Shown: piece by piece, positions 1-53,799 of the stretch | Layout: each line of letters starts with the position of its first letter | How positions within the stretch are numbered: position 1 is the stretch's first letter | NCBI RefSeq assembly: GCF_001648555.1 | Contig: NZ_LQXM01000026.1 | Location: 124,001 to 188,000, forward strand | DNA from: Rossellomorea aquimaris TF-12 | GTDB taxonomy: Bacteria > Bacillota > Bacilli > Bacillales > Bacillaceae_B | Length of the DNA stretch: 64,000 bases | Direction of reading: 5' to 3' | The notes under the pieces: generated by a model | What the model was told of the DNA's origin: nothing | What the model saw: the letters and a program-made list of their open reading frames with translations, nothing else | Database searches by the model: none | Position numbers and translations under genes: made by a program

Positions 1-273
1 GAAACGATGAGAATCTTTAGGGAATTAGAAAAATATGATTTAAGCCTGCAACCTGAGAAACTAAAGGGTAGACCTCTTATGTTTTGGCATGGGAAAAGGG
101 ACAAGGTTGTTCCCTTCCAACTGACACATGAGTTTTATCATAGTATTTTACCCTATTATGAAGATCTTGAAGATAACTTATTATTTGTCGAGGATGAGAA
201 GGCTGACCACAAAGTATCTAGAGAAGGTGTGATAAAACTGGTGGAGTGGTTTGAAAAGCACTTATCAGCCTAA
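1..273 (+). CDS. yitV: YitV-like alpha/beta hydrolase, C-terminal part
   Basis: Only the last 90 or so codons are present; the reading frame is open back to base 1, so the gene begins upstream of the window. The visible part reads WHGKRDKVVPF, the usual strand-loop carrying the acid residue of an alpha/beta hydrolase, and later DHKVSREG, which would hold the catalytic His. It is followed by yitW, the same order as yitV-yitW in B. subtilis. Substrate unknown; a serine esterase or peptidase-like role is inferred from the fold only. Confidence 0.7.
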   Translation, partial: ETMRIFRELEKYDLSLQPEKLKGRPLMFWHGKRDKVVPFQLTHEFYHSILPYYEDLEDNLLFVEDEKADHKVSREGVIKLVEWFEKHLSA

Positions 274-40747: not shown

Positions 40748-42610
40748 ATGGAGCAACATGCATCCGTTTCATCTTTAGTAATCGTTATTCTCGTAGCGTT
40801 TTTGACTCCCATATTATTGCACCGATTTAAATTGAACTTTATTCCTGTTGTAATTGCTGAAATTATAATGGGATTGGTAATAGGAAATAGTGGATTCAAT
40901 CTTGTTCACCAAGATATGTGGTTAGAGACATTATCGACGCTAGGTTTTATATTTCTTATGTTCTTAAGTGGACTGGAAATAGATTTTACTGCTTTTTCAA
41001 AAGGAAAGAAAAAGAAAGAAATTTTGCCTAATGGTAAAGAAGAACCAAATAGATTAAAATTAGCCATTATCATATTTATTGGGATATTCTTCGTATCATT
41101 AGGACTATCATATTTATTCGTATTATTTGGTCTAATTGATAATGCGTTCCTAATGACGTTAATTATTTCAACAATCTCGTTAGGTGTTGTCGTTCCAACC
41201 TTAAAAGAAGCTCATATTATGAAAAGTGCAATCGGACAGATTATTTTACTTGTGGCTGTCATTGCTGATTTAGCTACAATGATCTTGCTTGCGGTATTTG
41301 TTTCTTTATATGGAGAGGGTCACGGAAATATGTGGCTTCTACTCATTCTTTTCGGGGTTGGAGTTCTGTTATACTTCCTGGCAAAGAGAATGAAAAACAA
41401 CAACTTTATCAAAAGTTTATCTACGGGTACTGTTCAAATTGGTACACGAGCTGTCTTTACGTTAATTATTTTGCTAGTGGCTGTTTCAGAAACAGTAGGT
41501 GCAGAAAATATATTAGGTGCCTTTTTAGCCGGTGTTCTAGTCTCATTATTGGCACCCAATCAAGAGATGGTTCATAAATTGGATTCATTTGGTTACGGTT
41601 TTCTCATTCCCATCTTCTTTGTAATGGTCGGGGTAGAATTAGATTTAGGTTCATTATTAAGTGATAAAAAGATGCTTCTCTTAATTCCATTATTACTTAT
41701 GGCTTTTTTGATTTCTAAAATTATTCCTGTCTATATATTAAAGATTTGGTATGACACAAAGACAACATTTGCTTCAGCATTTTTATTAACATCAACTCTG
41801 TCACTTGTTATCGCAGCTGCTAAAATTGCTGAGAGAATGGAAATCATCACTTCTCAAATGAGTGGTACTCTGATACTAGTAGCAGTCATTACGTGTATCA
41901 TTACGCCTATTTTCTTTAAAAAGCTATTTCCAAGAGAAAGTGCAAAGGAGAAGAAGCTTAAGGTTGTATTCTTAGGGGCAAACCAAATGACGATGCCTGT
42001 ATCCAGAGAGCTACATTCCTCTCTTTATGAGCCAGTTTTATACCATACAAAGCAAGATAAATCAGATCGAAACATTGCAGACTCTTTATTCACCATTCAT
42101 GAAATTGATAACTATGAATTGGAAACACTTGAGTCAATGGATTTATTTGAAGCAGATATTATGGTCATTTCAACAGGTGATGAGGAAATGAATGCGACAA
42201 TTGCTGTTACTGCAAAAGAGTATGGTGTAAATCGAGTCATCGTACGTGTTGAGAGTCCTGATTTACATGAAACTCTTCGAGAACAGGAAATTGAAGTGTA
42301 TTCTGTTTTCTTATCAACAAAAGCATTATTACGTGCATTGATTGAATCACCTTCAGTAATGAATATTCTTACAAACCAAGAAACTTCTCTGTACGAAATC
42401 CGTATGCTGAATAGTCAGTTTGAAGGTATGACTCTCCGAAAATTCCCGTTCACTGGAGATGTCATTTTTGTTCGAATCTTTAGAGGGAAAGATTCCATTG
42501 TTCCTCATGGAGACACGGAACTACACATGAACGATCGTTTAATCGTGACTGGCTCAAAAGAGTATGTTGACGAATTAAAACGAGAACTAGAGTTTTGTGA
42601 GTACTGTTAA
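40748..42610 (+). CDS. yjbQ: YjbQ, CPA2 cation/proton antiporter with RCK domains
   Basis: 620 residues. About 12 membrane helices (1-390) with AENILGAFLAGVLVSLL of Na+/H+ exchangers, then a TrkA-N (RCK) domain (about 400-520, VVFLGANQMTMPVSREL) and a TrkA-C domain (about 535-618). Probably moves Na+ or K+ against H+, gated by a ligand on the RCK part. 20 bp after mgtE, same strand: likely one operon for ion balance. Confidence 0.93.
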   Translation: MEQHASVSSLVIVILVAFLTPILLHRFKLNFIPVVIAEIIMGLVIGNSGFNLVHQDMWLETLSTLGFIFLMFLSGLEIDFTAFSKGKKKKEILPNGKEEPNRLKLAIIIFIGIFFVSLGLSYLFVLFGLIDNAFLMTLIISTISLGVVVPTLKEAHIMKSAIGQIILLVAVIADLATMILLAVFVSLYGEGHGNMWLLLILFGVGVLLYFLAKRMKNNNFIKSLSTGTVQIGTRAVFTLIILLVAVSETVGAENILGAFLAGVLVSLLAPNQEMVHKLDSFGYGFLIPIFFVMVGVELDLGSLLSDKKMLLLIPLLLMAFLISKIIPVYILKIWYDTKTTFASAFLLTSTLSLVIAAAKIAERMEIITSQMSGTLILVAVITCIITPIFFKKLFPRESAKEKKLKVVFLGANQMTMPVSRELHSSLYEPVLYHTKQDKSDRNIADSLFTIHEIDNYELETLESMDLFEADIMVISTGDEEMNATIAVTAKEYGVNRVIVRVESPDLHETLREQEIEVYSVFLSTKALLRALIESPSVMNILTNQETSLYEIRMLNSQFEGMTLRKFPFTGDVIFVRIFRGKDSIVPHGDTELHMNDRLIVTGSKEYVDELKRELEFCEYC

Positions 42611-42620
42611 ATCGAGAAAA

Positions 42621-42660
42621 AACAAAACTTCCCAAGATATTATTCTTGGGAAGTTTTATT
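42621..42660 (+). terminator. Terminator of mgtE-yjbQ
   Basis: AAAACTTCCCAAGA pairs with TCTTGGGAAGTTTT, then T-rich. Confidence 0.9.
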
Positions 42661-42734
42661 TATTTAAAGGGATTTTGAATATAAGCTCTAATTAATTAAG
42701 TAAGGGTAAAAATGAAGGAAGAGGATGTGTAATC

Positions 42735-43220
42735 ATGTGGGAGAAAAAAATTATGGAAGTTAGAGAACGTTTAAAAGAAAGCTTCATTCACTTACCAGAA
42801 GAAAAGTTGAATGAAAAGCCTGCTGCCGGTGAGTGGAGTATCGCTCAAATTATTTTACATTTGGCTGGAGCTGAGAAACGCTTTATTAAATTAGCATGGA
42901 ATGCAGCGGAGGAAGAAGCAGAAGCAACTGGGGAAGATATTGATTTATCTGTTTTCGAAGATACATCTAAGAAATTAAAGGCCCCAATTGAACCGACAGA
43001 TGAGCCAAAGTCCACAGAATACCTGGTTCAGGCATTAGATGAGTCCAGACAAGAGACCTTGCGTTTTATAAATAAGTATTCGAAAGAGGATATTGGAAAG
43101 AAGGCAATGAATCACCACCGTTTTGGAAACATGCCCATTTGGCAGGTATTTGAGCTTTTAGGTATGCACGAGTCACGACATATTTTTCAAATTGATGAAG
43201 TGAAGAATAGAATATTATAA
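42735..43220 (+). CDS. DinB-like metal-binding protein
   Basis: 161 residues with the four-helix DinB/YfiT fold. The metal triad is visible: His42 in IILHLAGAE, His145 and His149 in MHESRHIFQ. Such proteins are often thiol-dependent transferases using bacillithiol. GAAGAGG before the ATG. Single-gene unit before fabI; role unknown. Confidence 0.82.
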   Translation: MWEKKIMEVRERLKESFIHLPEEKLNEKPAAGEWSIAQIILHLAGAEKRFIKLAWNAAEEEAEATGEDIDLSVFEDTSKKLKAPIEPTDEPKSTEYLVQALDESRQETLRFINKYSKEDIGKKAMNHHRFGNMPIWQVFELLGMHESRHIFQIDEVKNRIL

Positions 43221-43275
43221 TGATTGCAAAAAGGATGATTCATAATTACTGCTTTTCTTTTTCGGTTTATTCATG

Positions 43276-43297
43276 TAAAATTAGTAGCAGGTACTAA
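43276..43297 (+). promoter_or_regulatory. fabI promoter -10 box with FapR operator
   Basis: TAAAAT (43276-43281) with a poor T-rich -35. Its last T begins TTAGTAGCAGGTACTAA (43281-43297), an inverted repeat (TTAGTA...TACTAA) very close to the FapR consensus. Same overlap geometry as the fabH promoter. Confidence 0.87.
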
Positions 43298-43323
43298 TAA
43301 CATGTAATAATAGGAGGATTTAA

Positions 43324-44100
43324 ATGACTCTTTCACTTAAAGGTAAAACATTTGTGGTAATGGGAGTTGCCAATAAACGAAGTATTGCGTGGGGGATTGC
43401 ACGCTCTTTACATCAATCAGGTGCAAGATTAATCTTTACATATGCAGGTGAACGTTTTGAGAAGGGTGTAAGGGATCTTGCAGGTACATTAGAGGGGGCA
43501 GAAAACTCCCTCGTCCTGCCATGCGATGTAACGAGTGATGAAGATATTGAAAAGTGTTTTGCAACTATTAAAGATGAAGTTGGAGTTATTCATGGCCTTG
43601 CCCACTGTATTGCTTTTGCCAATAAAGACGAACTTGCTGGCGATTATATGAATACAACAAGAGACGGTTTTCTTCTTGCACACAACATTAGTTCATATTC
43701 ATTAACGGCTGTCTCTAAAGTAGCAAAGGACCTCATGACCGAAGGTGGAAGTATTGTGTCAATGACCTATTTAGGTGGAGAACGAGTGATGCAAAATTAT
43801 AATGTAATGGGTGTAGCAAAGGCTTCTTTAGAAGCAAGTATAAAATACCTAGCAAGTGATTTAGGAAAGAATGGCATTCGTGTAAATGCCATATCTGCCG
43901 GTCCAATTCGTACACTTTCTGCAAAAGGTGTAGGTGATTTCAACAGTATCCTAAAAGAAATTGAAGAAAGAGCTCCACTCCGTCGCAATACAACACAAGA
44001 GGAAGTCGGAGATACTGCAGTATTCTTGTTTAGTGATTACTCCAGAGGAATCACTGGAGAGAATCTTCATGTTGATTCAGGCTACCATATACTCGGATAA
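43324..44100 (+). CDS. fabI: Enoyl-ACP reductase FabI
   Basis: 258 residues. NAD(P)H-dependent last step of each fatty acid elongation round. N-terminal GVANKRSIAWGIA nucleotide loop and the FabI Tyr-x6-Lys pair, Tyr159 and Lys166 in QNYNVMGVAKASLE, plus Tyr149. TAGGAGG before the ATG. Under FapR like fabHF. In B. subtilis (yjbW) thi genes lie upstream; they are absent here. Confidence 0.96.
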   Translation: MTLSLKGKTFVVMGVANKRSIAWGIARSLHQSGARLIFTYAGERFEKGVRDLAGTLEGAENSLVLPCDVTSDEDIEKCFATIKDEVGVIHGLAHCIAFANKDELAGDYMNTTRDGFLLAHNISSYSLTAVSKVAKDLMTEGGSIVSMTYLGGERVMQNYNVMGVAKASLEASIKYLASDLGKNGIRVNAISAGPIRTLSAKGVGDFNSILKEIEERAPLRRNTTQEEVGDTAVFLFSDYSRGITGENLHVDSGYHILG

Positions 44101-44107
44101 AAAATAT

Positions 44108-44147
44108 AACCTGATAACAAGACTTATTCTTGTTATCAGGTTTTTTA
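44108..44147 (+). terminator. Terminator of fabI
   Basis: AACCTGATAACAAGA pairs with TCTTGTTATCAGGTT, then T run. Confidence 0.94.
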
Positions 44148-44164
44148 ATGTTTTTTCTCAAGGT

Positions 44165-44510
44165 TGGCTCCATCTTTAAGAATGTTCGTGACAGAGATTA
44201 ATAGTAAAAAAATCTCTCTTGAAAAATAGTTATTTTCATTTTTTTTAAAATTTCATGCTTAGAAAATCGATTTGATCGGAAGGTGTTCGACTCCTGTGGA
44301 AAAAGAGGGACAGTTCGAAAAGCGGAGGGAATTTGTCCAGGTGCTTATGACCTCGAGTCCCTAATCCCGCCGCGAGCTCGACAGGTGAGACCCCGGTAGC
44401 AGAGGAGGCTCACTGCCCGTCCCGCGGAAAGCAAGCATCCTGTCACTGAAATCAAATACTATTTCTTATCTGAAATAGCAACATCTTTACGAAAAGAACC
44501 TTCGTAAGGA
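44165..44510. repeat. Composite dispersed repeat: C fragment, GC-rich B element, nested inverse A
   Basis: The gap 44101-44618 holds no gene before cotO. CCATC...GTTCGTGACAGAG (44171-44195) equals the right end of family C. TCATGCTTAGAAAATCGATT then GGTGTTCGACTCCTG (44252-44296) and GAGGCTCACTGCCCGTCCCG to GCAAGCATCCTG (44405-44442), then GAAATAGCAACATCTTTACG, form the B element. Inside it, GCTTATGACCTCGAGTCCCT (about 44344-44363) is the inverse of family A. G+C is far above that of the region. Confidence 0.8.
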
Positions 44511-44618
44511 TCACAAAGCTTATTTTTTAATAAAATGTCCGTTTGGTTATTTTCTCATGAAACCCCTGGGCACTTCTCGCATACATATAGAAGTGGAGAA
44601 GTAATAGGAGGTGTTTGT

Positions 44619-45155
44619 ATGAAAAAGGAAAAATCAGCAAAGAAGGAACCATTACTCTATATTCAACAACCTAAACTTGAGAACGTTAAGGCGAATATGC
44701 AAGTAACATATCGCTCTTCAAAGGCGAAGCCTAAAGAAGTAAAGCCTGTTGAAGAGATGTCATCGAGTAAAAAAGAGAATTCTTCTTACCAAAGAAAGAT
44801 TGGAACAGAAGAGCCATATCAGGATGAAAAAGAATTTAAGAAATCAACGAATGAAAAAGACGAAGAAATTGCACAAAATACATCAAGTAAGGAAGAGAAA
44901 TTTTCAGGTGCCTCAGCTTTTAGAAAAGTCAAACCCTTTAAAGAGCTTAGTATAGACGAGAAGTTAGATTATATTTCTGAAAGCATTTCAGGGAAAGTAC
45001 CTTTTCCTTGTGAATTTTCCACTGAGGAATCTTCTCATAAAGGTGTAATGACCAATGATGCTGGTAATGAAATTACAATAAAAACTTTTCAGGGAGAAGA
45101 ATTTACGATTAAAAGAAGTGCTTTGAAATCCATCAAAATGATTGGCTTGCATTAA
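44619..45155 (+). CDS. cotO: CotO, spore coat assembly protein
   Basis: 178 residues from the ATG at 44619, seven bases after TAGGAGGTG. The first 110 residues are Lys/Glu/Ser-rich and disordered-looking; the last 55 are conserved (KPFKELSIDEKLDYISESIS, VPFPCEF). Coat morphogenetic protein, made in the mother cell. Upstream AC-16 bp-CATACATAT (44562-44588) is a near match to a sigma-K promoter. Shorter than B. subtilis CotO (227). Convergent with cotZ. Confidence 0.82.
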   Translation: MKKEKSAKKEPLLYIQQPKLENVKANMQVTYRSSKAKPKEVKPVEEMSSSKKENSSYQRKIGTEEPYQDEKEFKKSTNEKDEEIAQNTSSKEEKFSGASAFRKVKPFKELSIDEKLDYISESISGKVPFPCEFSTEESSHKGVMTNDAGNEITIKTFQGEEFTIKRSALKSIKMIGLH

Positions 45156-45158
45156 TAG

Positions 45159-45189
45159 AGCCAGACGGGAAATCCCGCCTGGCTTTTTG
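45159..45189 (+). terminator. Terminator of cotO
   Basis: AGCCAGACGGGA pairs with TCCCGCCTGGCT, then TTTTT. Confidence 0.93.
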
Positions 45190-45225
45190 TTCTTTATAGA
45201 GTGTAGTGGTTAAACAGTCGGATCC

Positions 45226-45482
45226 GCTTTTCGTTGGTGTCCAGCTCCAGGGCTTAGGGGCTCGAGGTCATTTCGTGAGAATCCCATAAGGCAAAGAACG
45301 CCTTTTGGGATTCCCTCAAAATGCTTGTCGCCCCAAATCAAAGCCCTTCCGCTTTTCGTTAATGTCTAGCTCCGCCTCCTAGTCCCTCGAGGTCACAAGT
45401 GAAAAATCCCCAAAGGCAAAAAACGCCTTTAGGGATTTCTCATTTGTGCTTGTCGGGCCTAAACAGTCGGCTCCGCTTTTCG
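45226..45482. repeat. Tandem pair of family A structured repeats
   Basis: The cotO-cotZ gap 45156-45483 is filled by two direct copies with period 125 bp: GTCCAGCTCC at 45239 and GTCTAGCTCC at 45364, each followed by CTCGAGGTCA, a hairpin whose loop region reads GGCAAA(G/A)AACGCC, GCTTGTCG, and CCGCTTTTCGTT. The outer stems differ but are kept paired: AGAATCCC/GGGATTCC in copy one, CACAAGTG..AAATCCC/GGGATTT..CATTTGTG in copy two. A third start (CTCCGCTTTTCG) lies at 45471. Confidence 0.88.
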
Positions 45483-45483
45483 T

Positions 45484-45957
45484 TTAGTCTTCGCACTCTA
45501 GTTCAACGTGTACATCTTTGATACATTGAATAGCACAGAAGCAATCAAGGTCTACTGTGATACACTCTCCAGTGAATACCCATTCTGTCATATTAGATAA
45601 AGAATCCATAGTATCTTCATCAGAATGCAGTTCGTAATCAGGTCTTAACACTTGAAGTGTTGCACAACAATTGTCAAATACTTCTTTTACTCGGAAAAAC
45701 GGTGATTTCCAAGGGCGGCCCTTGATGTGTGCTTTAAATGTATCTCCATTTTTAAGATATAGCTTGAAAATACGTGTATTTAAACGATTGGACGGACTTA
45801 CCATTGAACCTAGTGGCTCAAGGAAACAATCATTTTTACAATCATTACACTCTTCGCCAGCTACGTCTTGGATATCTTTTATAGCACGAACGGCTTGACA
45901 TACACAACCGCGATCTCTTGCACCAGCAACTCTATCTCTATCTCTTCCGCAACCCAT
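45484..45957 (-). CDS. cotZ: CotZ/CotY family spore coat protein, Cys-rich
   Basis: 157 residues from ATG 45957, with AAGGAGGAA before it. Thirteen cysteines, among them GCVCQAV, EECNDCKNDC, NCC and DCFCAIQC, used for disulfide cross-linking in the outer coat crust or exosporium (CotZ, CotY, ExsY). The N-terminal MGCGRDRDRVAGARDRG is polar. B. subtilis has both cotZ and cotY beside cotO; here only one copy is seen, so I cannot say which it is. Confidence 0.87.
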   Translation of the reverse strand: MGCGRDRDRVAGARDRGCVCQAVRAIKDIQDVAGEECNDCKNDCFLEPLGSMVSPSNRLNTRIFKLYLKNGDTFKAHIKGRPWKSPFFRVKEVFDNCCATLQVLRPDYELHSDEDTMDSLSNMTEWVFTGECITVDLDCFCAIQCIKDVHVELECED

Positions 45958-46092
45958 ATAAAAGTTCCTCCTTAAAATAAATTTCATTTACACTTATAAC
46001 ATATTGTCTAATAGGCAATTAGGTAACGGACATCTGCCCTCTTTTGGAAATTTGGGCTTGTATAATTTGTATAAGGAAAGGAATTGATTGAA

Positions 46093-46452
46093 GTGGGAAT
46101 ACCTTTCGTCGAACTATTTTGCTTGGGCTTAGCTGTATTTCGATTGACTCACTTGATTGTATTCGATAAGATAACTGAATTTATTAGGTCCCCTTTTTTT
46201 GATGAAGTAACTGAGCCTTCGGAGAATGGTGAGGAAGATATTTACCTGATTCCGAAGAAAGGGGGAATCAAAGGATTCTTGGGTGAGTTACTTTCTTGTT
46301 ACTGGTGTACAGGAATGTGGGTGGCCATCAGTCTATATGGATTGAATAACTATTTCCCGTCAATTTTTGCTCCTATTACCACAATTTTAGCGGTTGCTGG
46401 TATTGCTTCAATACTTGAAGCTGCTGTTCAAAGTTGGTCAGGTACTGATTAA
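46093..46452 (+). CDS. yjcA: YjcA, DUF1360 sporulation membrane protein
   Basis: 119 residues from GTG 46093, about eleven bases after AAGGAAAGGA; a TTG at 46084 abuts the site. Membrane segments at about 4-22, 65-85 and 90-110. FRLTHLIVFDKITEFIRSPFF and LSCYWCTGMWVA are DUF1360 signatures. B. subtilis YjcA (120 residues) is sporulation-specific. Divergent from cotZ. Confidence 0.87.
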   Translation: MGIPFVELFCLGLAVFRLTHLIVFDKITEFIRSPFFDEVTEPSENGEEDIYLIPKKGGIKGFLGELLSCYWCTGMWVAISLYGLNNYFPSIFAPITTILAVAGIASILEAAVQSWSGTD

Positions 46453-46471
46453 AATTAGGTAATTAGTGGAA

Positions 46472-46499
46472 ACAAGCTTTCCTTCTATCACATACAATA
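46472..46499 (+). promoter_or_regulatory. Candidate sigma-K promoter of the 30-residue peptide gene
   Basis: AC (46472-46473), 17 bp, CATACAATA (46491-46499), a full match to the sigma-K pattern AC-N16/17-CATANNNTA. It lies 23 bp before the ATG. Confidence 0.65.
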
Positions 46500-46521
46500 A
46501 TGAAGAAGGAGGCTTGTGAAA

Positions 46522-46614
46522 ATGAAAAAATATTCTACAAACAGTAAGAAAAAAGCAACAAAGACGAAAAAGAAAAAAAGCTGCGGATGCGGATCAAAAG
46601 TGAAAAAAAATTAG
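46522..46614 (+). CDS. 30-residue Lys- and Cys-rich peptide, unknown
   Basis: Thirty residues with 14 lysines; starts MKKYSTNSKKKATK, ends with KKKKSCGCGSKVKKN. GAAGGAGG lies nine bases before the ATG, and a terminator begins at the stop codon, so the gene is complete. The CGCG motif could bind metal or cross-link. With a sigma-K-like promoter and coat genes beside it, a late mother-cell or coat role is inferred. I do not recognise the family. Confidence 0.65.
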   Translation: MKKYSTNSKKKATKTKKKKSCGCGSKVKKN

Positions 46615-46644
46615 GCTGCTCTTAATGAGCAGGCCTTTTTTTTT
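46613..46644 (+). terminator. Terminator of the 30-residue peptide gene
   Basis: GGCTGCTC and GAGCAGGCC pair with a bulge, then eight or more T. Confidence 0.8.
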
Positions 46645-46703
46645 CATAAAATTAGATTTTATGAAAAAAATAAAGAGTGAGTACAGAAAAAGAGGGATGT
46701 GTC

Positions 46704-47171
46704 ATGACAAGAAAATGGTTATTGGTTACGGTTAGTGTCGGAGTGTTAATGGGGTGTGCCAACAAAGAAGACGGTGGCGAAAGTAAAATTGCTCTCTTGA
46801 AAACAACAAATCCCCCACCAATTGAGTTGGTTGAAAATCCTGAAACAGATAGTATTGGTCATGCTATTAAGAAAGAAATTTCAAAAATGAAAGAACTTTA
46901 TGATGTTGCAGTAATTCAAGGTAAGGATAACGTTTTAGTAGTGTATAAAGTAAAACATTTCAAAAGATTTCAAATGAAGAAAATTGAAAAGAAGATGGAT
47001 AGTTATCTAGAGAAAAAATATCCAGAAGAGGATTTTATTTTATCAAGTGATTATAAAATTTTTTTAGAGACTGTTCGATTAAAAGAAAAGATTGAGAACG
47101 GTTCGATTTCGAAGAAGGATGCTGAAAAAAAATTCAAAGAAATCGTTAAGCTTCAAAAGGAAAAAACGTAG
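46704..47171 (+). CDS. YhcN/YlaJ-like sporulation lipoprotein
   Basis: 155 residues from ATG 46704; AAAAGAGGGA upstream. Lipoprotein signal VLMGC, lipidated Cys18. The body (NPETDSIGHAIKKEISKMKELYDVAVIQGKDNVLVVYKVK) matches YhcN/YlaJ, inner spore membrane lipoproteins of the forespore. It heads the operon lipoprotein-spoVAC-spoVAD-spoVAE-DUF421, an order known from spoVA2-type operons. 12 bp before spoVAC. Confidence 0.82.
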   Translation: MTRKWLLVTVSVGVLMGCANKEDGGESKIALLKTTNPPPIELVENPETDSIGHAIKKEISKMKELYDVAVIQGKDNVLVVYKVKHFKRFQMKKIEKKMDSYLEKKYPEEDFILSSDYKIFLETVRLKEKIENGSISKKDAEKKFKEIVKLQKEKT

Positions 47172-47183
47172 GAGGAATAAGTA

Positions 47184-47654
47184 GTGGGAAAAACTCCAAA
47201 AACTCCCGAACAAATGAAGTATGAGAACTTAGAAAAGCAATATGAAACAAAGAGACCCCTTATGAAAAATATCATAAAGGCTTTCTTTGTAGGAGGATTT
47301 ATTTGTTTTATAGGACAGGTTATATCCTATTTTTATATTTATTTTTTTAACTTCACGGAACAAACCGCTGGAAATCCAACCGTTGCAACAATGGTATTTA
47401 TAGCCATGCTTCTTACGGGCTTTGGTGTATATGATCATATTGGACAATTCGGGGGAGCAGGCAGTGCTGTCCCTGTAACAGGGTTCGGAAATGCTGTCAT
47501 TTCTGCAGCAATAGAACATAAAACAGAAGGCTATGTATTAGGAGTCGGAGGAAATATTTTTAAACTAGCTGGTTCTGTCATTGTATTCGGAGTTTTTTCT
47601 GCATTTGTAGTCGCCTTAATTAAGACCATCCTAATACAGCTGGGGGTGATTTAA
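47184..47654 (+). CDS. spoVAC: SpoVAC, spore DPA channel protein
   Basis: 156 residues. A charged N-terminal tail (to 28), then four or five membrane helices with FGVYDHIGQFGGAGSAVPVTGF, the family signature. SpoVAC forms a mechanosensitive channel in the inner spore membrane for dipicolinic acid. Start GTG at 47184 after AGGAGGAA. Its last base overlaps the start codon of spoVAD. Confidence 0.94.
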   Translation: MGKTPKTPEQMKYENLEKQYETKRPLMKNIIKAFFVGGFICFIGQVISYFYIYFFNFTEQTAGNPTVATMVFIAMLLTGFGVYDHIGQFGGAGSAVPVTGFGNAVISAAIEHKTEGYVLGVGGNIFKLAGSVIVFGVFSAFVVALIKTILIQLGVI

Positions 47655-48670
47655 TGCTTCAGGGTTCAAGAACATGGTTATTTCCAACAAACCCTGCCAT
47701 CCTTTCTACTGGTGTAGTGGGTGGACCATTTGAAAAGCAAGGGAACCTTTCAGGTGATTTTGATCAATTTTATGATGATTTGTGGATGGGACAGAACACC
47801 TATGAAAAAGCGAACAGAACACTAATTGAGGATGCTGTACAAATAGCTCTAGAAAAACAGTCCCTTCAAAGTAGTGATGTTCAATTTTTCCTTACAGGAG
47901 ATTTAATCAATCAAATTACTCCTTCAAGCTTTGCTGCCAGAACTAACGGTATCCCTTATTTCGGGTTATTCGGTGCATGTTCTACTTCAATGGAAGGCCT
48001 GGCTCTTGCTGGATTCTTAATAAATCATAATGGTGCAGAATGTGTTGTAACGGGTGCTTCAAGCCATAATTCCGCAACGGAAAAACAGTTTCGTTATCCG
48101 ACAGAATATGGTGGGCAAAAACCTCCAACAGCTCAATGGACGGTTACGGGTGCAGGTTATGCCGTAGTCGGGAGCGGATCGAAACTGACTACGTCAGCAC
48201 CAAGAGTTACATCTGCCACAATTGGAAAAGTCCTTGATCTGGGTTTATCAGATCCATTTAATATGGGAGGTGCTATGGCACCAGCTGCCGTAGATACCAT
48301 TGTCGCCCATTTTCAGGATCTAAATAGAGATCCATCTTACTATGATCTAATTATTACAGGGGATCTTGCAACAATCGGAAGGAAAACAGCGCTTGAGTTG
48401 CTTAAAGAAAAAGGATATACAGTATCAGAGAAGAAATTTCAAGACTGTGGTCTATTGATTTATGGAAGTGATCAACCAGTACAGTCAGGTGCAAGTGGTC
48501 CAGGGTGCTCTGCAACTGTATTGTATGGTCATTTATTAAATGAAATGAAAAAAGGAACCTATAAAAGAATATTGGTAATAGCCACAGGGGCACTGTTATC
48601 ACCTTTAACCTTTCAACAAGGAGAAAGTATACCTTGTATTGCCCATGCCGTTTCCATTGAATATTTATAA
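47654..48670 (+). CDS. spoVAD: SpoVAD, DPA-binding protein
   Basis: 338 residues with the thiolase-like fold, including GACSTSMEGLALAG, but without enzyme function in studied homologues: SpoVAD binds Ca-dipicolinate and feeds the SpoVA channel. TGGGGGTG lies before the ATG, inside spoVAC. Operon member; spoVAE follows after 26 bp. Confidence 0.95.
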   Translation: MLQGSRTWLFPTNPAILSTGVVGGPFEKQGNLSGDFDQFYDDLWMGQNTYEKANRTLIEDAVQIALEKQSLQSSDVQFFLTGDLINQITPSSFAARTNGIPYFGLFGACSTSMEGLALAGFLINHNGAECVVTGASSHNSATEKQFRYPTEYGGQKPPTAQWTVTGAGYAVVGSGSKLTTSAPRVTSATIGKVLDLGLSDPFNMGGAMAPAAVDTIVAHFQDLNRDPSYYDLIITGDLATIGRKTALELLKEKGYTVSEKKFQDCGLLIYGSDQPVQSGASGPGCSATVLYGHLLNEMKKGTYKRILVIATGALLSPLTFQQGESIPCIAHAVSIEYL

Positions 48671-48696
48671 GAATAAGAAAGGAGGGTCACATTGGT

Positions 48697-49053
48697 ATGC
48701 TAGCAATGTTTTTCTGGTCTTTTGTAATAGGTGGAGTAATTTGCGTCATAGGTCAATTGATGTTTGATGTTGCGAAATTAACTCCTGGTCATACTTTGAG
48801 CTATTTAGTCGTAGCGGGCTCTATACTTTCGGGATTGGGGTTGTATGAACCTTTGATTGATTTTGCAGGAGCAGGTGCCACAATTCCAATTACAAGCTTT
48901 GGAAACGCTCTCGTAAATGGAGCAATGCAGGAATCTCAAGAACACGGACTTGTCGGAGTATTAACAGGAATGTTTGAAGTTACCAGCTCAGGTATATCAG
49001 CTGCCATCATATTTGGATTTATAGGAGCTCTCCTTTTTAAACCAAAGGGGTAA
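48697..49053 (+). CDS. spoVAE: SpoVAE (SpoVAEb type), membrane protein
   Basis: 118 residues, four membrane helices, with GLYEPLIDFAGAGATIPITSF, a signature shared with SpoVAC. It is one of the membrane subunits of the SpoVA complex. AAAGGAGGG before the start. Followed by the DUF421 gene at 15 bp. Confidence 0.92.
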   Translation: MLAMFFWSFVIGGVICVIGQLMFDVAKLTPGHTLSYLVVAGSILSGLGLYEPLIDFAGAGATIPITSFGNALVNGAMQESQEHGLVGVLTGMFEVTSSGISAAIIFGFIGALLFKPKG

Positions 49054-49068
49054 TAGGGGTGAAGGGTT

Positions 49069-49761
49069 ATGCCAGAATATTTAGAGGTAGCATTTCGGAG
49101 TATATTTATCTTACTTTCTTTATTTTGTATTACAAAATTACTTGGGAAAAAACAGCTTTCAAAATTATCTTTTTTTGAGTACATTACGGGTATTACAGTT
49201 GGAAGTTTAGCAGGTACTCTTTCGATGGATCTCCAGCTTCCGTTAAGTGAAGGATTAATGAGCATTCTCATCTGGTTTGTATTCCCTTTCTTATTTTCCT
49301 ACTTGTCACTTAAGAGTATTAAGTTTAGACGATTTGCTGAAGGGAAACCGACTGTCTTTATTAAAGATGGAGAGCTAGATGATGCGGCTTTAAAGAAAGA
49401 GAAATATTCCGTGGACGAATTACTCGAGCAGCTTCGAAAAAAGGATGTATTCCGAGTGTCGGATGTTGAATTTGCTTCATTAGATACAAATGGAGATTTA
49501 AGCGTTATGCTAAAAAAAGAAAAACAGCCTCTTGTAAAAGAAGATGTATTTCAAATGTTACAAATCGCTAGCCCTCCACAAGCCGTAATAACAGATGGTG
49601 AGATAGATATAGAGGCTTTGAAGGAGGTTGGATTTCCTAAACCCTGGCTAATGAAAGAGATATCCAATAGGCATCTAACGCTTGATAAAATATTTCTAGC
49701 TCAATTAGACAGAGAGGGAAACCTGACCTTCGACCTCTACAATTGGACAAACACACAATAA
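49069..49761 (+). CDS. DUF421/YetF-family membrane protein, end of spoVA operon
   Basis: 230 residues: three N-terminal membrane helices (about 6-80) and a cytoplasmic alpha/beta domain (KFRRFAEGKPTVFIKDGELD, VSDVEFASLDTNGDLSVML). DUF421 proteins occur at the end of spoVA2 operons and are linked to spore heat resistance there. Overlap in function with the second DUF421 protein at 51906 is possible. Confidence 0.87.
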   Translation: MPEYLEVAFRSIFILLSLFCITKLLGKKQLSKLSFFEYITGITVGSLAGTLSMDLQLPLSEGLMSILIWFVFPFLFSYLSLKSIKFRRFAEGKPTVFIKDGELDDAALKKEKYSVDELLEQLRKKDVFRVSDVEFASLDTNGDLSVMLKKEKQPLVKEDVFQMLQIASPPQAVITDGEIDIEALKEVGFPKPWLMKEISNRHLTLDKIFLAQLDREGNLTFDLYNWTNTQ

Positions 49762-49839
49762 ATTCATCAATAGCCCATACGAAAGAGAGTCATATTACAT
49801 ATGTTAGTAATGACTAAAGGTAAAGAGAGGTGATACTCA

Positions 49840-49965
49840 ATGCCTTACGGATATGGATATGGCGGCTGTGGCTACCCAGGAGGTGGATACTACGGTTCTA
49901 CATTTGTACTAATCGTAGTATTATTTATCTTATTAATCATCGTCGGTGCTAGCTTCTATAATTAA
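49840..49965 (+). CDS. YjcZ-family tiny sporulation membrane peptide
   Basis: 41 residues. [20 protein letters not shown] is a Gly/Tyr-rich head; a single membrane helix [17 protein letters not shown] follows. This is the pattern of the YjcZ/SscA group, small spore proteins of the mother cell. AGAGAGG lies nine bases before the ATG. Own terminator after it. Confidence 0.85.
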
Positions 49966-49982
49966 TTAAGTAGGATAAAAAT

Positions 49983-50018
49983 AGTAAGATTTCTCAATTA
50001 GAGGGATCTTGCTTTTTT
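49983..50018 (+). terminator. Terminator of the YjcZ-like gene
   Basis: AGTAAGATTTCTC pairs with GAGGGATCTTGCT, followed by seven T. Confidence 0.85.
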
Positions 50019-50054
50019 TATGCTTTGAATATGAGCAATTAACAATTCCTTATC

Positions 50055-50082
50055 ACCCTCTTCTTTATGCTTACATAAGATA
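50055..50082 (+). promoter_or_regulatory. Sigma-K promoter of spoVIF
   Basis: AC (50055-50056), 17 bp, CATAAGATA (50074-50082), full match to AC-N16/17-CATANNNTA. Known sigma-K control of spoVIF in B. subtilis supports it. Confidence 0.75.
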
Positions 50083-50111
50083 TTTATAGTTAAAAGGAGG
50101 CGTGATGTGAA

Positions 50112-50372
50112 ATGAATAATAATTTCTTTAAGAACTTGGAAAAGAAAACAGGCGTGGATATGAATGAAGTGTTTCAACTTGCTAATTCATTACAAAATGC
50201 AAATTTCAAAGATGAAGCGACTGTAAGAAGTGTTATCAAACGTGTATCTAAAATTGCTAATAAACCCGTAAATAAAGAGATGGAAGATAAAATTGTTAAA
50301 TCGATTGTAAATGAAGGTAAGCAATTAGATTTTGGCACCATCTCAAACATGATAAATAAAGGTAAAAAATAA
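50112..50372 (+). CDS. spoVIF: SpoVIF, stage VI sporulation protein F
   Basis: 86 residues (88 in B. subtilis, YjcC). Helical, basic, with FFKNLEKKTGVDMNEVFQLA and QLDFGTISNMINKGKK typical of the family. Needed for coat assembly and germination of spores; works with GerE in the mother cell. AAAAGGAGG upstream of the ATG. Confidence 0.92.
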   Translation: MNNNFFKNLEKKTGVDMNEVFQLANSLQNANFKDEATVRSVIKRVSKIANKPVNKEMEDKIVKSIVNEGKQLDFGTISNMINKGKK

Positions 50373-50390
50373 TACATGAGAACAATTTGG

Positions 50391-50455
50391 GGAGGATGGT
50401 CATAAAAATACGTTGTTCTACGTATTTTATGTTAATTCTCCCTTTATTTAATGTC
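50391..50455 (+). terminator. Terminator of spoVIF
   Basis: Long imperfect helix: GGGAGGA...ATAAAAATACGT with ACGTATTTTAT...TTCTCCC, then TTTATTT. Confidence 0.7.
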
Positions 50456-50503
50456 ACATTTAAGTAAGTAGAGCGAAGGTAATGTTTTTTGTACAAACTT
50501 TTC

Positions 50504-50532
50504 ACTTAATAAATTTAGTTTTACATACCATA
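50504..50532 (+). promoter_or_regulatory. Possible sigma-K promoter before the 90-residue gene
   Basis: CATACCATA (50524-50532) fits the -10 element; an AC at 50504-50505 is 18 bp upstream, one base more than usual. Confidence 0.4.
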
Positions 50533-50588
50533 TAAACGTTTTAAATAGATGAAGATATGGGTATTAAATCATTAAGGAGGTCATAAAT

Positions 50589-50861
50589 ATGGGATACATT
50601 GCTCCAATACCACAACATCAGTATAAACAATATCAAGAAAGAGAAATCAAAGTAGAAAAACACCCATTTAAATTTTTCCCCGTTCAACCTATAAAACCAT
50701 TAAAAAATAAGCCGGATACAAATGATGAAGAAATGCATGAAAATCATTTAAGATATTCTGTGAATACAACCAACAGTACAAACCTTCAAAAACCATCTGT
50801 TCCACCAGAGATATTAGCCAAAGTTACAGGAAAAGGCAGTTACTTTAACGAATACGTATAA
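50589..50861 (+). CDS. Unknown 90-residue protein in sporulation block
   Basis: Hydrophilic, rich in Pro, Gln, Lys and Asn: YIAPIPQHQYKQYQERE at the start and KPSVPPEILAKVTGKGSYF at the end. No membrane segment. AAGGAGG ends nine bases before the ATG. A sigma-K-like -10 element and the neighbours suggest a mother-cell protein. I do not recognise it. Confidence 0.72.
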   Translation: MGYIAPIPQHQYKQYQEREIKVEKHPFKFFPVQPIKPLKNKPDTNDEEMHENHLRYSVNTTNSTNLQKPSVPPEILAKVTGKGSYFNEYV

Positions 50862-50865
50862 AAAG

Positions 50866-50957
50866 AAAAGCGGAAACGACTTGACCAGCCCCGACAAGCT
50901 TAAGGCGAGCATGGTAAAAAGGCGTTTTTTGCTTTTTTGCAGAATGATCTTATGACA
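50866..50957 (-). repeat. Family A repeat, truncated inverse copy
   Basis: Read on the minus strand: GTCATAAG, then a GCAAAAAACGCC-type hairpin, GCTTGTCGGGGC and CCGCTTTTC, the same blocks and order as at 45364-45482. The first half, GTCTAGCTCC-CTCGAG, is missing. Confidence 0.65.
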
Positions 50958-51007
50958 TTGTCAAAGAACCTCATTTCTATTGATTTTTGGAGAGCGAAGG
51001 TGAGAAA

Positions 51008-51904
51008 GTGAAACTTCAACAATTAAATGAACATTGTTATGTTTTTACAGGAGCTGTCAATATTGGTTATTGTACGAGGGATGGAAAAGGTCTTTTAATT
51101 GATACTGGCTTGGATGATTCATCCATTAAAAAGGTTGAAAAGATATTAAATCAAAAAGGCTTTCCTTTAGATTATTGTATTATTACTCACGCCCATACGG
51201 ATCATTTTGGAGGAGCTAGTTATTTACAAAAAAAATTGGAAATACCATTGTTTGCACCAAGCCTAGAAAAATCCATACTAGAGCATCCTATTTTAGAACC
51301 TATCTATCTCTTTAATGGAGCAAAACCTATAGGAGAATTAAGGAATAAGTTTCTTGAAGGACAAGCGGTGAATATCGATTATGAAATTAATACCGGTAAT
51401 AATACAATAGGGCCGTTCGCTTTTCAGGCTATACATTTACCGGGACATTCATATGCTCAGGTGGGAATATTAATAGAAGATATTTTGTACGCAGCAGATA
51501 GTTATTTTGGGGAAGATGTTCTAAAAAAACATATTATTCCTTTTATAGTAGATGCTGATCAGACCATTTCATCCCTGGAAAAACTGTTTGAATTAAAGTG
51601 CAAAGGAGCTGTCCCAGGTCATGGAGAATTTGAAGAGCTTTTTTATCATACAGTAAAGCAAAATATTAGCCTTCATAATGAGAGATTACATACACTTTTA
51701 TCACTAGTAAATGAATCCGGTGCAGGAGTATCTTTTGAGAACTTATCGAAGAATTTCCTGAATATTCACGGGGTGTTTGCGAAAAACATAGGACAATGGC
51801 TATTGTTCAGAACATCCATAACAGCTTATCTGACTAGTCTTGAACGTAAAAAATTAATTCAGTTCATCCTAAAAGACAATGAACTGATGATTGTATCTGC
51901 TTAA
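51008..51904 (+). CDS. MBL-fold metallohydrolase
   Basis: 298 residues from GTG 51008, seven bases after GCGAAGG. Metallo-beta-lactamase fold with His61-Ala-His63-Thr-Asp65-His66 in THAHTDHFGGA, HLPGHSYAQ and GHGEFE later, which complete a two-metal site. The C-terminal 80 residues form a helical domain seen in glyoxalase-II-like relatives. Substrate not known. Confidence 0.85.
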   Translation: MKLQQLNEHCYVFTGAVNIGYCTRDGKGLLIDTGLDDSSIKKVEKILNQKGFPLDYCIITHAHTDHFGGASYLQKKLEIPLFAPSLEKSILEHPILEPIYLFNGAKPIGELRNKFLEGQAVNIDYEINTGNNTIGPFAFQAIHLPGHSYAQVGILIEDILYAADSYFGEDVLKKHIIPFIVDADQTISSLEKLFELKCKGAVPGHGEFEELFYHTVKQNISLHNERLHTLLSLVNESGAGVSFENLSKNFLNIHGVFAKNIGQWLLFRTSITAYLTSLERKKLIQFILKDNELMIVSA

Positions 51905-51905
51905 A

Positions 51906-52580
51906 TTAATATCCTTGAATCAATAGGCTTTCACCATCTTGCCATTCGGCGTATAATACGTCTTTTGGGGATTGAAAGCCTTGTTTCTTTATCTCATCCA
52001 TTAGCCAGGATTCTTCATACTCCGCCAATGTTAAATTGTCATGAACCACTTCTCCATCCACAATCAATGAAAGGGGGAGAGTTGCTTTTGTTGGGAGTAA
52101 GTTCAAATCATGTCGTTGAACGCTATCAAACATTGATTTTCGTATAACACTTAGAGTACCGTCTGATTCTAGTAGTGCATATTCGCATTCCCGTATTGAG
52201 AAAATATCTTTTGCTCGAAGTAAGTGTTGAAGTTGATTAAGATCCAAATGATTTTTTTTTAGCTCTTTGAAGTCAATTTTCCCTTTATTGATAATGATGG
52301 CCGGTGTTCCTTCTAATAGATGTCGGAAGCGTCTGGATTTTTGAGTGACATACTCTGTGAAGAAAATCAAACTGCCCCAAATAGTAATGGCTGAAAGTAT
52401 TTGTACAACAGTCGTCTTCCCATCATAAAGGGAGTTCCCAACAAGCTCACCAAGAATTAATGCAGAAATGAAATCAAATGCAGATATTTGTGTGATTTGT
52501 GTTTTTCCGAGAATTTTTGTGATTAATAGTAAAGCAAAATAACCAATAATTAATTCTACTGCAATTGACTTAATTTCCAA
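51906..52580 (-). CDS. DUF421/YetF-family membrane protein, second copy
   Basis: 224 residues: three membrane helices in the first 80, then the DUF421 domain (RFRHLLEGTPAIIINKGKIDF, IRECEYALLESDGTLSVI). Paralogue of the product at 49069 but clearly diverged and read alone on the other strand. Convergent with the MBL gene, one base apart. GGAAGGGGG before the ATG. Confidence 0.87.
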   Translation of the reverse strand: MEIKSIAVELIIGYFALLLITKILGKTQITQISAFDFISALILGELVGNSLYDGKTTVVQILSAITIWGSLIFFTEYVTQKSRRFRHLLEGTPAIIINKGKIDFKELKKNHLDLNQLQHLLRAKDIFSIRECEYALLESDGTLSVIRKSMFDSVQRHDLNLLPTKATLPLSLIVDGEVVHDNLTLAEYEESWLMDEIKKQGFQSPKDVLYAEWQDGESLLIQGY

Positions 52581-52661
52581 TATGGGTTCCCCCTTCCCAT
52601 TTATTTCATCATTATCGACTAGTTAAGATTAGTTTATACCTTAACAAAATGGGAGAAAATA

Positions 52662-52722
52662 AAACAAAAAGAACAAAACTATTGAGCCATATCGGCTTAA
52701 AGTTTTGTTCTTTTTGTTTTAT
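52662..52722 (-). terminator. Terminator of yjcF
   Basis: CAAAAAGAACAAAACT and AGTTTTGTTCTTTTTG form a long stem around about 20 bases; touches the yjcF stop codon. Confidence 0.8.
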
Positions 52723-53147
52723 TAAGATATCATTTTTTTCATTGTTTTATGGGGGATACCTGCGTCTAAAAATTCTTCAGAAGTTATTTCATAACCTAAT
52801 CCCTCATAAAAAGGAATTGCATATGTTTGAGCATTTAATTTCAGACTCGATAATCCTTTTTCCCTAGCGTAGTCCTCAATTGCGAGCATGATCTCTCTTC
52901 CTGCTCCCTTACCTCTTAACGATTTAAGTACACAAATTCTTTCTACTTTGCCTATACCATCAACGATGCGGAAACGACCAGCACCAGAAGGGCGTTTACC
53001 ATCATACAGTACAAAGTGAGTAGAATCATTTTCAAATGAATCGATTTCTTCTTCAAGAGGAACCTGTTGTTCATCCACAAATACTGTTTTTCTGACAGAG
53101 AACACTGCTTGAATTTGATTTTCTGTTGTCGCAATCTCTACCTTCAA
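52722..53147 (-). CDS. yjcF: YjcF, GNAT acetyltransferase
   Basis: 141 residues (140 in B. subtilis). ElaA/GNAT type: VRKTVFVDEQQVPLEEEID near the start, acetyl-CoA loop VLKSLRGKGAGREIMLAI, and LNAQTYAIPFYEGLGYE. Substrate unknown. Lies 4 bp after yjcG, so yjcG-yjcF is one transcript. Confidence 0.92.
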   Translation of the reverse strand: MKVEIATTENQIQAVFSVRKTVFVDEQQVPLEEEIDSFENDSTHFVLYDGKRPSGAGRFRIVDGIGKVERICVLKSLRGKGAGREIMLAIEDYAREKGLSSLKLNAQTYAIPFYEGLGYEITSEEFLDAGIPHKTMKKMIS

Positions 53148-53151
53148 AGAG

Positions 53152-53670
53152 TTAACAGTCCTTTCCTAAGCGGAATGTTTCATAGACTGTCCAGGATCCA
53201 TTTTCTAATTGATATAGTAAGTGGAAACGATCGATGGTCTCTTCATGATTCACACCCATCATGGTTAGAGAACCAAAAATATCTGAGTGCTCATCATTAG
53301 AAAGCTTTTGAGCAATTGTAATGTGAGGAACGAAGGCGTATTCTGGTTCGTCTCCCATAAAGTTTTGATGGTGCATGTCATGGTGAAGACCCTCTAACTC
53401 AGTCGTTGATTCAACCTTAAAATAAATGACATTGTTAACTGGCTGAAAGGAGCTAACTTTATATACTTTTAAATTAAACGGATCATATTTTTTGGCAATA
53501 TTTGTGAGTTTATCTGCGATATCTTTAATTTGAACATCGTCAGCTGAAAAGACATTTTTTAATGTTAAATGTGGTGGGATTAACGCATAATGAGGATCAT
53601 AACGTTTCCGATAAGAATTTGCTTTATCTTGTAGCTTTTTAGATGGGAAAATGACAATACCGTAGTTCAT
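53152..53670 (-). CDS. yjcG: YjcG, 2H phosphoesterase (2'-5' RNA ligase-like)
   Basis: 172 residues from the ATG at 53670, nine bases after GGAGGAGG; an ATG at 53679 overlaps the site. Two HxT motifs, His34-Leu-Thr36 and His116-Ile-Thr118, build the 2H active site. UPF0477 family. RNA or cyclic phosphate substrate not known. Confidence 0.92.
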
Positions 53671-53799
53671 TTTCTTCATTCCTCCTCCATAGTTACGTTC
53701 GTGTATAACTTCTTGTTTAACTTATAGTATAGCAAATTTTTAAAAAATTTAATATAGGACGAATGAAAGACAATTTTCTCTTTATGTAAAGGGATATAA

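Follow-up and report, generated by a model that had tools for sequence, protein, structure and literature searches.

Organization of the locus

The 64,000-nucleotide window analysed here (the whole stretch from position 124,001 to 188,000 of contig NZ_LQXM01000026.1 of Rossellomorea aquimaris TF-12) contains a sporulation locus in which a spoVA operon, a candidate channel operon for dipicolinic acid (DPA), follows a frame of only 30 codons. From position 45484, the locus comprises cotZ (on the reverse strand), yjcA, which encodes a DUF1360 protein, the 30-codon frame, the gene of a YhcN/YlaJ-like lipoprotein (NJ), spoVAC, spoVAD, spoVAEb, a gene for a YetF-like DUF421 protein, yjcZ and spoVIF (Table 1). 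The family search also placed fabI and cotO upstream of cotZ, and Pfam and NCBIfam models run on the window genes confirmed the gene coordinates and order given in the original prediction, which had been made from the letters of this DNA. The order FabI-CotO-CotZ-YjcA-peptide-NJ-C-D-Eb-YjcZ-SpoVIF was found again across genera, with losses. We consider it likely that two independent units meet here, an SpoVA2-type channel operon and a sigma-K-dependent peptide gene of the yjcA-spoVIF coat cluster. The genome is 4.04 Mb in 30 contigs, with a completeness of 99.92 and a contamination of 9.56; among named sequences, the window SpoVAD is best matched by Rossellomorea.

Table 1. Features of the locus, in window coordinates
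Feature	Position	Strand	Evidence
cotZ-like coat/crust gene, divergent neighbour	45484..45987	-	PF10612, 116 bits
yjcA (DUF1360), anchor gene of the peptide family	46084..46452	+	PF07098, 115 bits
GerE-like box AATTAGGTAATT	46453..46464	+	exact against the assumed consensus RWWTRGGYNNYY
Predicted sigma-K promoter of the peptide gene: AC 46472-46473, 17 nucleotides, CATACAATA 46491-46499	46472..46499	+	exact match, genus conservation
Ribosome-binding site AAGGAGG of the peptide gene	46506..46512	+	invariant, 25/25 genus sequences
30-residue Lys/Cys micropeptide gene, CGC family	46522..46614	+	pN/pS 0.12 in codons 18-30, 0.36 overall
Terminator hairpin (46616-46632) and T run	46616..46643	+	fold z -3.65 for 46608-46645
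Sigma-F-like promoter of the operon (tentative): TCATA, 14 nucleotides, GAAAAAAATA	46644..46672	+	2 mismatches to the assumed GYATA-GGNNANAHTR
NJ-type YhcN/YlaJ lipoprotein, proposed channel cap	46704..47171	+	PF09580 below cut-off; homologues match
spoVAC	47184..47654	+	TIGR02838, 202 bits
spoVAD, SpoVA2-type	47654..48670	+	NF009069/PRK12404 570.7 versus NF006160/PRK08304 456 bits; tree
spoVAEb	48697..49053	+	TIGR02839, 161 bits
YetF-like DUF421 protein, 230 amino acids, without DUF1657 match	49069..49761	+	PF04239, 127 bits
yjcZ and sigma-K motif (AC 49779, CATATGTTA 49798)	49779..49965	+	TIGR01732; motif read from letters
spoVIF and sigma-K motif (AC 50055, CATAAGATA 50074)	50055..50372	+	NF052662; motif read from letters

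A resident operon of the SpoVA2 type

The spoVAC-spoVAD-spoVAEb trio was recognized by both Pfam and NCBIfam. The NJ lipoprotein of the window scored 21.3 bits against PF09580, below the cut-off of 26.3, which counts against its assignment; the family was nevertheless matched at E ≤ 0.01 by 39 of 44 aligned homologues (best 9.9e-13), and the lipobox cysteine C18 is invariant in all 44. When the NJ alignment was searched against the sequences of solved structures, only weak matches were obtained, mostly to ribosomal protein eS7, with E 0.034 or worse.

In a SpoVAD tree of 90 rows, which leaves out most sequences of the genus and those with stops and whose bootstrap was not fully settled, 7 classical sequences separated from 83 of the SpoVA2 type with a support of 100/100. 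Within the latter, a group of 20 rows (97/98) gathered 18 copies from outside the yjcA locus together with two that carry the yjcA label, and a group of 61 rows with modest support (93/86) consisted nearly entirely of yjcA-locus copies, that of the window among them; two yjcA-locus rows (L185 and L191) fell outside both. Labels were taken from locus markers, and the short loci L046, L049 and L053, tagged as "other", are yjcA- or spoVIF-locus copies. In addition, PRK12404 outscored PRK08304 for 6 of 6 SpoVA2-type SpoVAD proteins, the reverse being true for 4 of 4 classical ones. Since the tree and the NCBIfam scores agree, the SpoVA2-type core replaces the classical core, and is not a relocated copy of it.

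The operon resembles three known systems. With the SpoVA2 operon of the Bacillus cereus group (5A2, NJ2-C2-D2-Eb2) it has in common the NJ, C, D and Eb genes and a D of the SpoVA2 type; that group carries a full spoVA1 alongside, according to excerpts of PMC13059800, whereas the C-D-Eb set described here is the only one found. Moreover, the present operon has a DUF421 gene without DUF1657, a fixed slot between yjcA and yjcZ/spoVIF and a tentatively sigma-F-like promoter, a contrast drawn from described features. With the classical spoVA operon (spoVAA-AF) it shares homologues of C, D and Eb, but the SpoVAD types are fully separated in the tree and the operon does not occupy the sigF-lysA interval alongside spoVAA and spoVAB, that locus being elsewhere in the genome.

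An NJ-type gene, C, D, Eb and DUF421 are also common to the operon and to spoVA2mob, carried on Tn1546 (PMC5133452, in excerpt), and would suit a settled remnant of this mobile form. However, in line with the original prediction, Pfam found no DUF1657 match in the five operon proteins, to which this search was confined, and the sigma-G site predicted for the mobile form, according to the same excerpts, was not found here. Some 90 bp separate the operon from the peptide gene and some 80 bp from yjcZ, and many genera have these chromosomal neighbours too (no search was aimed at transposases). Its SpoVAD lies outside the 20-row group and inside the 61-row yjcA-locus group, in a tree that holds no copy known to be Tn1546-borne. 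On the basis of the conserved locus and the tree placement, a transposon remnant was rejected, and we regard it as very improbable. The earlier calls of an SpoVA2-type, resident rather than mobile operon were thus supported, and positions 46704-49761 probably represent a resident SpoVA2-type DPA channel operon, next to the separate gene of a putative sigma-K coat micropeptide.

The only set of spoVAC, spoVAD and spoVAEb, apart from the sigF-lysA operon

In the TF-12 genome we found one SpoVAD and two SpoVAC/Eb matches, all at this operon. The same numbers were obtained in each of the 36 genus genomes, TF-12 included (in G035 SpoVAD is in two fragments), and all 36 contain SpoVAA and SpoVAB, located away from SpoVAD. 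In the eight genus genomes from which the classical locus was fetched, it reads dacF-spoIIAA-spoIIAB-sigF-VAA-VAB-VAEA-VAF-lysA, with no matches to C, D or Eb; in TF-12 (L064), VAEA begins at 7066, just after the end of VAB at 7046. Family models confirm the SpoIIAA, SpoIIAB, SigF, SpoVAEa, LysA, FabI and CotO labels, while SpoVAF (a GerA family match) and dacF (carboxypeptidase models) are below cut-off and named on the basis of gene order. We therefore found no spoVACDEb set in the genome other than the operon at 46704-49761; the classical operon keeps spoVAA, AB, AEa and AF, and because the latter lacks C, D and Eb, the SpoVA2-type channel is the only such channel found in Rossellomorea. 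The doubt, raised in the original prediction, that this might be the classical operon with extra genes lost was dispelled by finding the classical locus separately at sigF-lysA. The second spoVAA-AF operon that the prediction proposed to look for does exist there, but it is not full.

The dacF-lysA region occurs in the TF-12 assembly (G000) in two near-identical copies, on contigs C2 (L064) and C4 (L065). Considering also the contamination value, the assembly is perhaps redundant or mixed.

The split extends beyond the genus. Of 25 genomes from other families of the order, 17 have SpoVAB no farther than about 3 kb from SpoVAD, 7 have the two apart (G042, G043, G046, G053, G056, G058 and G059), and G049 is without SpoVAB; the 17 include G044, where only D is kept. 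SpoVAB was present in 28 of 30 named Bacillaceae genomes and missing in two. SpoVAD was not near SpoVAB in 24 of the 28, the fetched locus passing from VAB to VAEA or VAF; since these genomes were picked from loci found with the window SpoVAD and are biased to SpoVA2 carriers, this is not a family-wide rate. Classical C and D are in place in 4 of the 28 (Priestia abyssalis, Priestia flexa, Ectobacillus funiculus and Bacillus pinisoli). According to excerpts of PMC3533761, spoVAC, spoVAD and spoVAEB are common to all spore formers compared and spoVAA/spoVAB are missing in a few; these excerpts do not mention the split seen here. Likewise, among the matches listed on spoVA, spoVA2 and yjcA/spoVIF, titles and abstract openings mention neither a split operon nor the peptide, and a literature search on Rossellomorea spores and DPA found no papers.

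Some arrangements deserve separate mention. On one contig, G044 has a lone classical-type spoVAD at the classical locus (L074, 6441-7436; 68% versus 50% identity to the two types) and, elsewhere (L092, 5176-6465), an NJ-like gene (24%), a C nearer to SpoVA2 (67% versus 58%) and an Eb (68% versus 66%), without D; plug and channel are perhaps separated and of different types in this organism. In G046, the operon at the yjcZ/spoVIF locus lacks D, which is elsewhere beside a DUF421 gene (L094, 5526-6914; L093, 5412-6410), and in G054 the operon at that locus lacks both C and D (L198, 3614-4515). The titles of L151, L162, L175 and L176 (Bacillus subtilis, Paenibacillus, Paenibacillus and Sphingomonas) look wrong, perhaps through mislabelling or contamination: in the SpoVAD tree L151 goes with Lederbergia, L162 with Peribacillus and L176 with Priestia flexa, and L175 agrees with Cytobacillus L171 in the layout of the locus and in the start of the lipoprotein.

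The promoter of the operon

Upstream regions were compared with GYATA-GGNNANAHTR, which we take to be the sigma-F consensus and calibrated on dacF, and with what we take to be the sigma-G consensus, calibrated on spoVAA. The sigma-G form HATR-15..19-CATWMTA matched exactly upstream of spoVAA in 28 of 46 sequences (shuffled 0.8), whereas none of 83 sequences upstream of NJ gave an exact match in three forms of the consensus. With one mismatch, GHATR-CATNHTA was found in 4 of the 83 (shuffled mean 10.5) and a looser form in 27 (26.7). The sigma-G consensus was set aside for the operon, with no exact match in 83 sequences and counts close to or below those of shuffled sequences. On the other hand, sigma-F with a spacer of 14 fits dacF (16/19 within one mismatch) and, allowing at most two mismatches, 23 of 49 yjcA-locus sequences upstream of NJ (shuffled mean 2.9, maximum 7); in loci L084-L123, mostly from the genus, it fits 22 of 30 (shuffled 3.1, maximum 7). 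At spacers 12, 13, 15 and 16 the counts upstream of NJ fall to 3, 4, 8 and 2 of 49, and upstream of spoVAA spacer 14 gave 1 of 46.

Several facts weigh against this assignment. Both consensus sequences are assumed, spacer 14 was chosen after seeing dacF, two mismatches allow dacF to fit at spacers 12, 15 and 16 as well, the control FabI also rises (13/41 at spacer 15 and 9/41 at spacer 12), and the window site itself has two mismatches. Because FabI rises and dacF fits several spacers, we call the operon promoter sigma-F-like only tentatively. A palindrome, TTTTCATAAAATTAGATTTTATGAAAA (46641-46667), overlaps the -35 of this site, and the overlap together with the two mismatches makes an operator an alternative reading of it. 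A relaxed sigma-F pattern was uninformative, and a loose CATA-13..16-GAAAA pattern was dropped, being raised also for SpoVIF (7/47) and VAA (12/46). The forespore nature of the operon, assumed in the original prediction, is thus retained to the extent of a tentative sigma-F-like promoter, but the sigma-G consensus, which fits classical spoVAA, does not fit here. If SpoVA2 is indeed made from a sigma-F-type promoter and AA, AB, AEa and AF under sigma-G, channel core and accessory proteins would be made at different times.

The 30-codon frame is a gene

The frame at 46522-46614 has its own ribosome site, stop codon and terminator hairpin. In the alignment of the genus (25 of 33 distinct intergenic sequences, those shorter than 340 nucleotides), the ratio of nonsynonymous to synonymous differences (pN/pS) was 0.12 in codons 18-30, 0.60 in codons 2-17 and 0.36 overall. 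The start codon is GTG in 13 sequences, ATG in 8 and TTG in 4, with frame and core kept, and length changes occur in multiples of three. The peptide consists of a variable basic N-terminal part followed by a fixed core, K-K-x-C-G-C-G, and then basic residues; K18, C21, G22 and C23 are common to 20 peptides chosen across genera, and G24 is found in at least 90% of them. All 36 genus genomes contain it, 30 by the profile at E ≤ 0.01 and six (G001, G016, G021, G024, G030 and G033) as read from fetched sequence. The promoter block is better conserved than the coding part, as might be expected if the frame were untranslated and promoter or RNA were what matters. This explanation is hardly credible in view of the low pN/pS of codons 18-30, the frame-keeping length changes and the core kept across genera; an RNA element was also rejected for lack of an Rfam match at the gathering threshold in 40000-54000. 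Judged on these sequence patterns, the peptide gene is real, and the original prediction holds on this point, both for the gene with its exact sigma-K match and for conservation of the frame in close relatives.

The family appears to be without a name in Pfam and NCBIfam. A scan of the 20 peptides gave no match over curated cut-offs in these databases, and the weak matches each concerned one member only (e.g., TIGR03995, E 0.13; Cas12f2, E 0.0073). The tiny YjcZ sporulation proteins (TIGR01732) are likewise very small, carry the sigma-K motif and belong to the same cluster, but YjcZ has a hydrophobic stretch; the peptide, in contrast, is basic, has a CGC core and gave no TIGR01732 match. A literature search on small cysteine-rich sporulation peptides found no papers.

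A sigma-K-type promoter precedes the peptide gene

We take the sigma-K consensus to be AC-N16/17-CATANNNT, which was calibrated on SpoVIF and YjcZ. The bare motif occurs 25 times in the window, counting both strands, so that a single match proves little; the match here goes beyond chance because it is conserved in the genus and recurs in other genera. In the 25 genus sequences, mean pairwise identity was 97% in the -35 block, 54% in the spacer, 91% in the -10 block and 100% in the ribosome site, and the distance from AC to CATA was 17 in all of them. Across genera, 44 distinct upstream regions were obtained from 83 loci by requiring a recognisable start and a ribosome site (in the first 60 loci also DUF1360) and removing duplicates; 4 of them come from Rossellomorea or close kin in the tree. 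The exact motif was present within 130 nucleotides upstream of 33 of these 44 peptide genes (mean 0.8 and maximum 4 in 200 letter shuffles). As to the named genes, it preceded SpoVIF in 44 of 47 loci and YjcZ in 41 of 43, and was not found upstream of NJ (0/54), DUF1360 (0/49), SpoVAC (0/58), SpoVAEb (0/57), FabI (0/41), CotZ (0/18) or the GNAT (0/39), KefB-like (0/10) and LigT (0/28) genes, short labels for acetyltransferase, exchanger and phosphoesterase genes, respectively.

A GerE-like box stops 7 nucleotides before the -35 AC, with at most one mismatch in 20 of the 25 genus sequences. The consensus that we take for SpoIIID had two mismatches in all 25 and was rejected. It must be weighed against the assignment that the sigma-K and GerE (RWWTRGGYNNYY) letters are our assumption and that the exact sigma-K motif is missing upstream of 11 of the 44 peptide genes. 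On balance, the peptide gene appears to be transcribed by sigma-K in the mother cell, and, if so, the transcript would start a few nucleotides past CATACAAT, late in this compartment. The terminator hairpin and T run make the gene a unit by itself. The adjacent yjcA is sigma-E controlled, also in the mother cell, in B. subtilis (PMC517825, in excerpt).

The peptide belongs to the yjcA cluster

Peptide-like frames, defined as 20-90 residues with C-x-C and at least 6 K/R, were sought in the 600 nucleotides 3' of DUF1360. They were found in 91 of 104 distinct stretches, many from the genus, as compared to 48 of 3160 control tiles, and behind 1 of 10 DUF1360 genes with neither cot nor spoVA nearby in the locus. 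In 61 genomes, the 20-peptide profile gave 36 matches at E ≤ 0.01, at most one per genome, all of them 38-234 bp behind a DUF1360 match (coordinates compared by hand). Among 150 genomes of the order, 25 had a match at E ≤ 0.001; DUF1360 was directly upstream in 21 of these, and the lipoprotein and spoVAC lay no more than about 1.5 kb away in 15, whereas 10 lacked them at that distance (L253, L260, L262, L265, L267, L269, L270, L272, L273 and L274). L270, for example, reads DUF1360-peptide-YjcZ-SpoVIF, with no spoVA in between.

Some of these results speak against so close an association with yjcA. L037, L188, L193 and L199 have the cot/spoVA setting and no peptide-like frame; the profile matched at E ≤ 0.01 in only 6 of the 18 non-genus genomes with DUF1360, so that the peptide is not universal in yjcA carriers (more divergent frames were seen by eye in some, e.g., G038, G039 and G059); and 4 of the 25 order-level matches have no DUF1360 within about 1.5 kb, two adjoining spoVIF and two (L262 and L274) near neither. 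The counts are also partly non-independent, since some DUF1360 stretches came from loci fetched by peptide matches, and 9 of the 25 order-level loci, or identical copies, contributed rows to the peptide profile (A1); the other 16 comprise 12 with DUF1360, two more with SpoVIF and two with neither.

Because the peptide precedes NJ in the genus loci fetched and in many other genera, it might be thought to act with the SpoVA2 channel, for instance as a mother-cell factor for DPA passage of the outer membrane or for NJ maturation. This is improbable, considering the ten order-level matches without lipoprotein or spoVAC nearby (in one of these, G056, the operon is about 6 kb on), G050, whose single SpoVAD is beside SpoVAB with the peptide still behind DUF1360, and G051, where the SpoVA2-type set is on a different contig from yjcA and the peptide. 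Furthermore, the peptide gene has its own terminator and the promoter type of the other compartment. The order-level matches and the arrangements in G050 and G051 led us to reject a partnership with spoVA: the peptide belongs to the cotZ-yjcA-yjcZ-spoVIF cluster and is not specifically paired with spoVA. The odd pairing of a mother-cell peptide with a forespore operon, to which the original prediction drew attention, apparently arises because a forespore-type operon lies nested within a cluster of mother-cell genes, and not from joint function; the nesting stands, but there is no specific pairing, as the peptide follows yjcA and occurs without spoVA. The homologues that the prediction suggested to seek beside spoVA or cot genes do lie near spoVAC in most order-level cases, but the more constant neighbour is DUF1360.

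Proposed roles of the two units

According to excerpts of PMC13059800, a C2/D2/Eb2/NJ2 complex is required for DPA import. As NJ, C, D and Eb are all present here, the same mechanism may operate, without a second C-D-Eb as fallback. SpoVAC and SpoVAEb would form the membrane path for DPA, SpoVAD would plug it from the core side and the NJ lipoprotein would cap the channel on the outside; these roles are carried over from published SpoVA2 work in another species, to be combined with the gene content, type, copy number and split observed in this study. A stabilising effect on the inner membrane is probable for the DUF421 protein: B. subtilis spores were less resistant to wet heat once the DUF421 protein YetF or YdfS was lost, and an inner-membrane modification was proposed (PMC10126465, in excerpt).

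The region 46453-46643 would be a separate mother-cell gene, transcribed by sigma-K with GerE perhaps helping. Mother-cell timing, coat neighbours, the invariant C-x-C and the many lysines point to a role in coat or crust: the peptide may be a late component that forms disulfides through C-x-C with cysteine-rich coat proteins such as CotZ and is further cross-linked through its lysines. We give this cross-linked component a little less than an even chance. Conservation, cluster and promoter motif were observed directly; coat location and cross-linking are suggested by neighbours and composition, which tells against a firmer statement. The main rival is a binding role, in which the basic stretches and C-x-C of the peptide would hold a metal or a polyanion such as nucleic acid, making it a metal buffer or coat-assembly regulator and not a structural cross-linker. 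An invariant C-G-C with flanking lysines in an otherwise variable, very small and basic peptide would suit such binding; there is no match to a Pfam or NCBIfam family, however, and a late structural role accords better with sigma-K timing and with the coat genes nearby, so that we hold binding to be the less likely of the two.

Two elements seem to be new: the family of CGC micropeptides, and a split that leaves SpoVA2 as the sole channel core and that every genus genome searched shows. Their extension is a tentative proposal, which we place below an even chance when both parts are taken jointly: CGC peptides would be a new family of sigma-K coat micropeptides in many Bacillaceae genera, easily missed because of their size and their GTG/TTG starts, and many Bacillaceae would have dropped the classical C-D-Eb, leaving the channel to SpoVA2 alone, made from a promoter of the sigma-F type, and AA/AB/AEa/AF under sigma-G at the old locus. 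Species with a sole SpoVA2-type C-D-Eb would offer a natural test of the need for the NJ cap without a classical channel, and of the role of spoVAA, AB, AEa and AF once separated from C-D-Eb. A second gain is a conserved, position-marked sigma-K-type micropeptide family without a name.

Other features around the cluster

Imperfect repeat units with a spacing of 125 bp lie at 45202-45484, between cotO and cotZ. A 90-residue frame 3' of spoVIF (50589-50861) has no Pfam match at E ≤ 0.001, and relatives of it are in the same place in several genera. Just past the cluster, at 51906-52580 on the reverse strand, there is a second DUF421/YetF gene, which occupies the same position in many genus loci.

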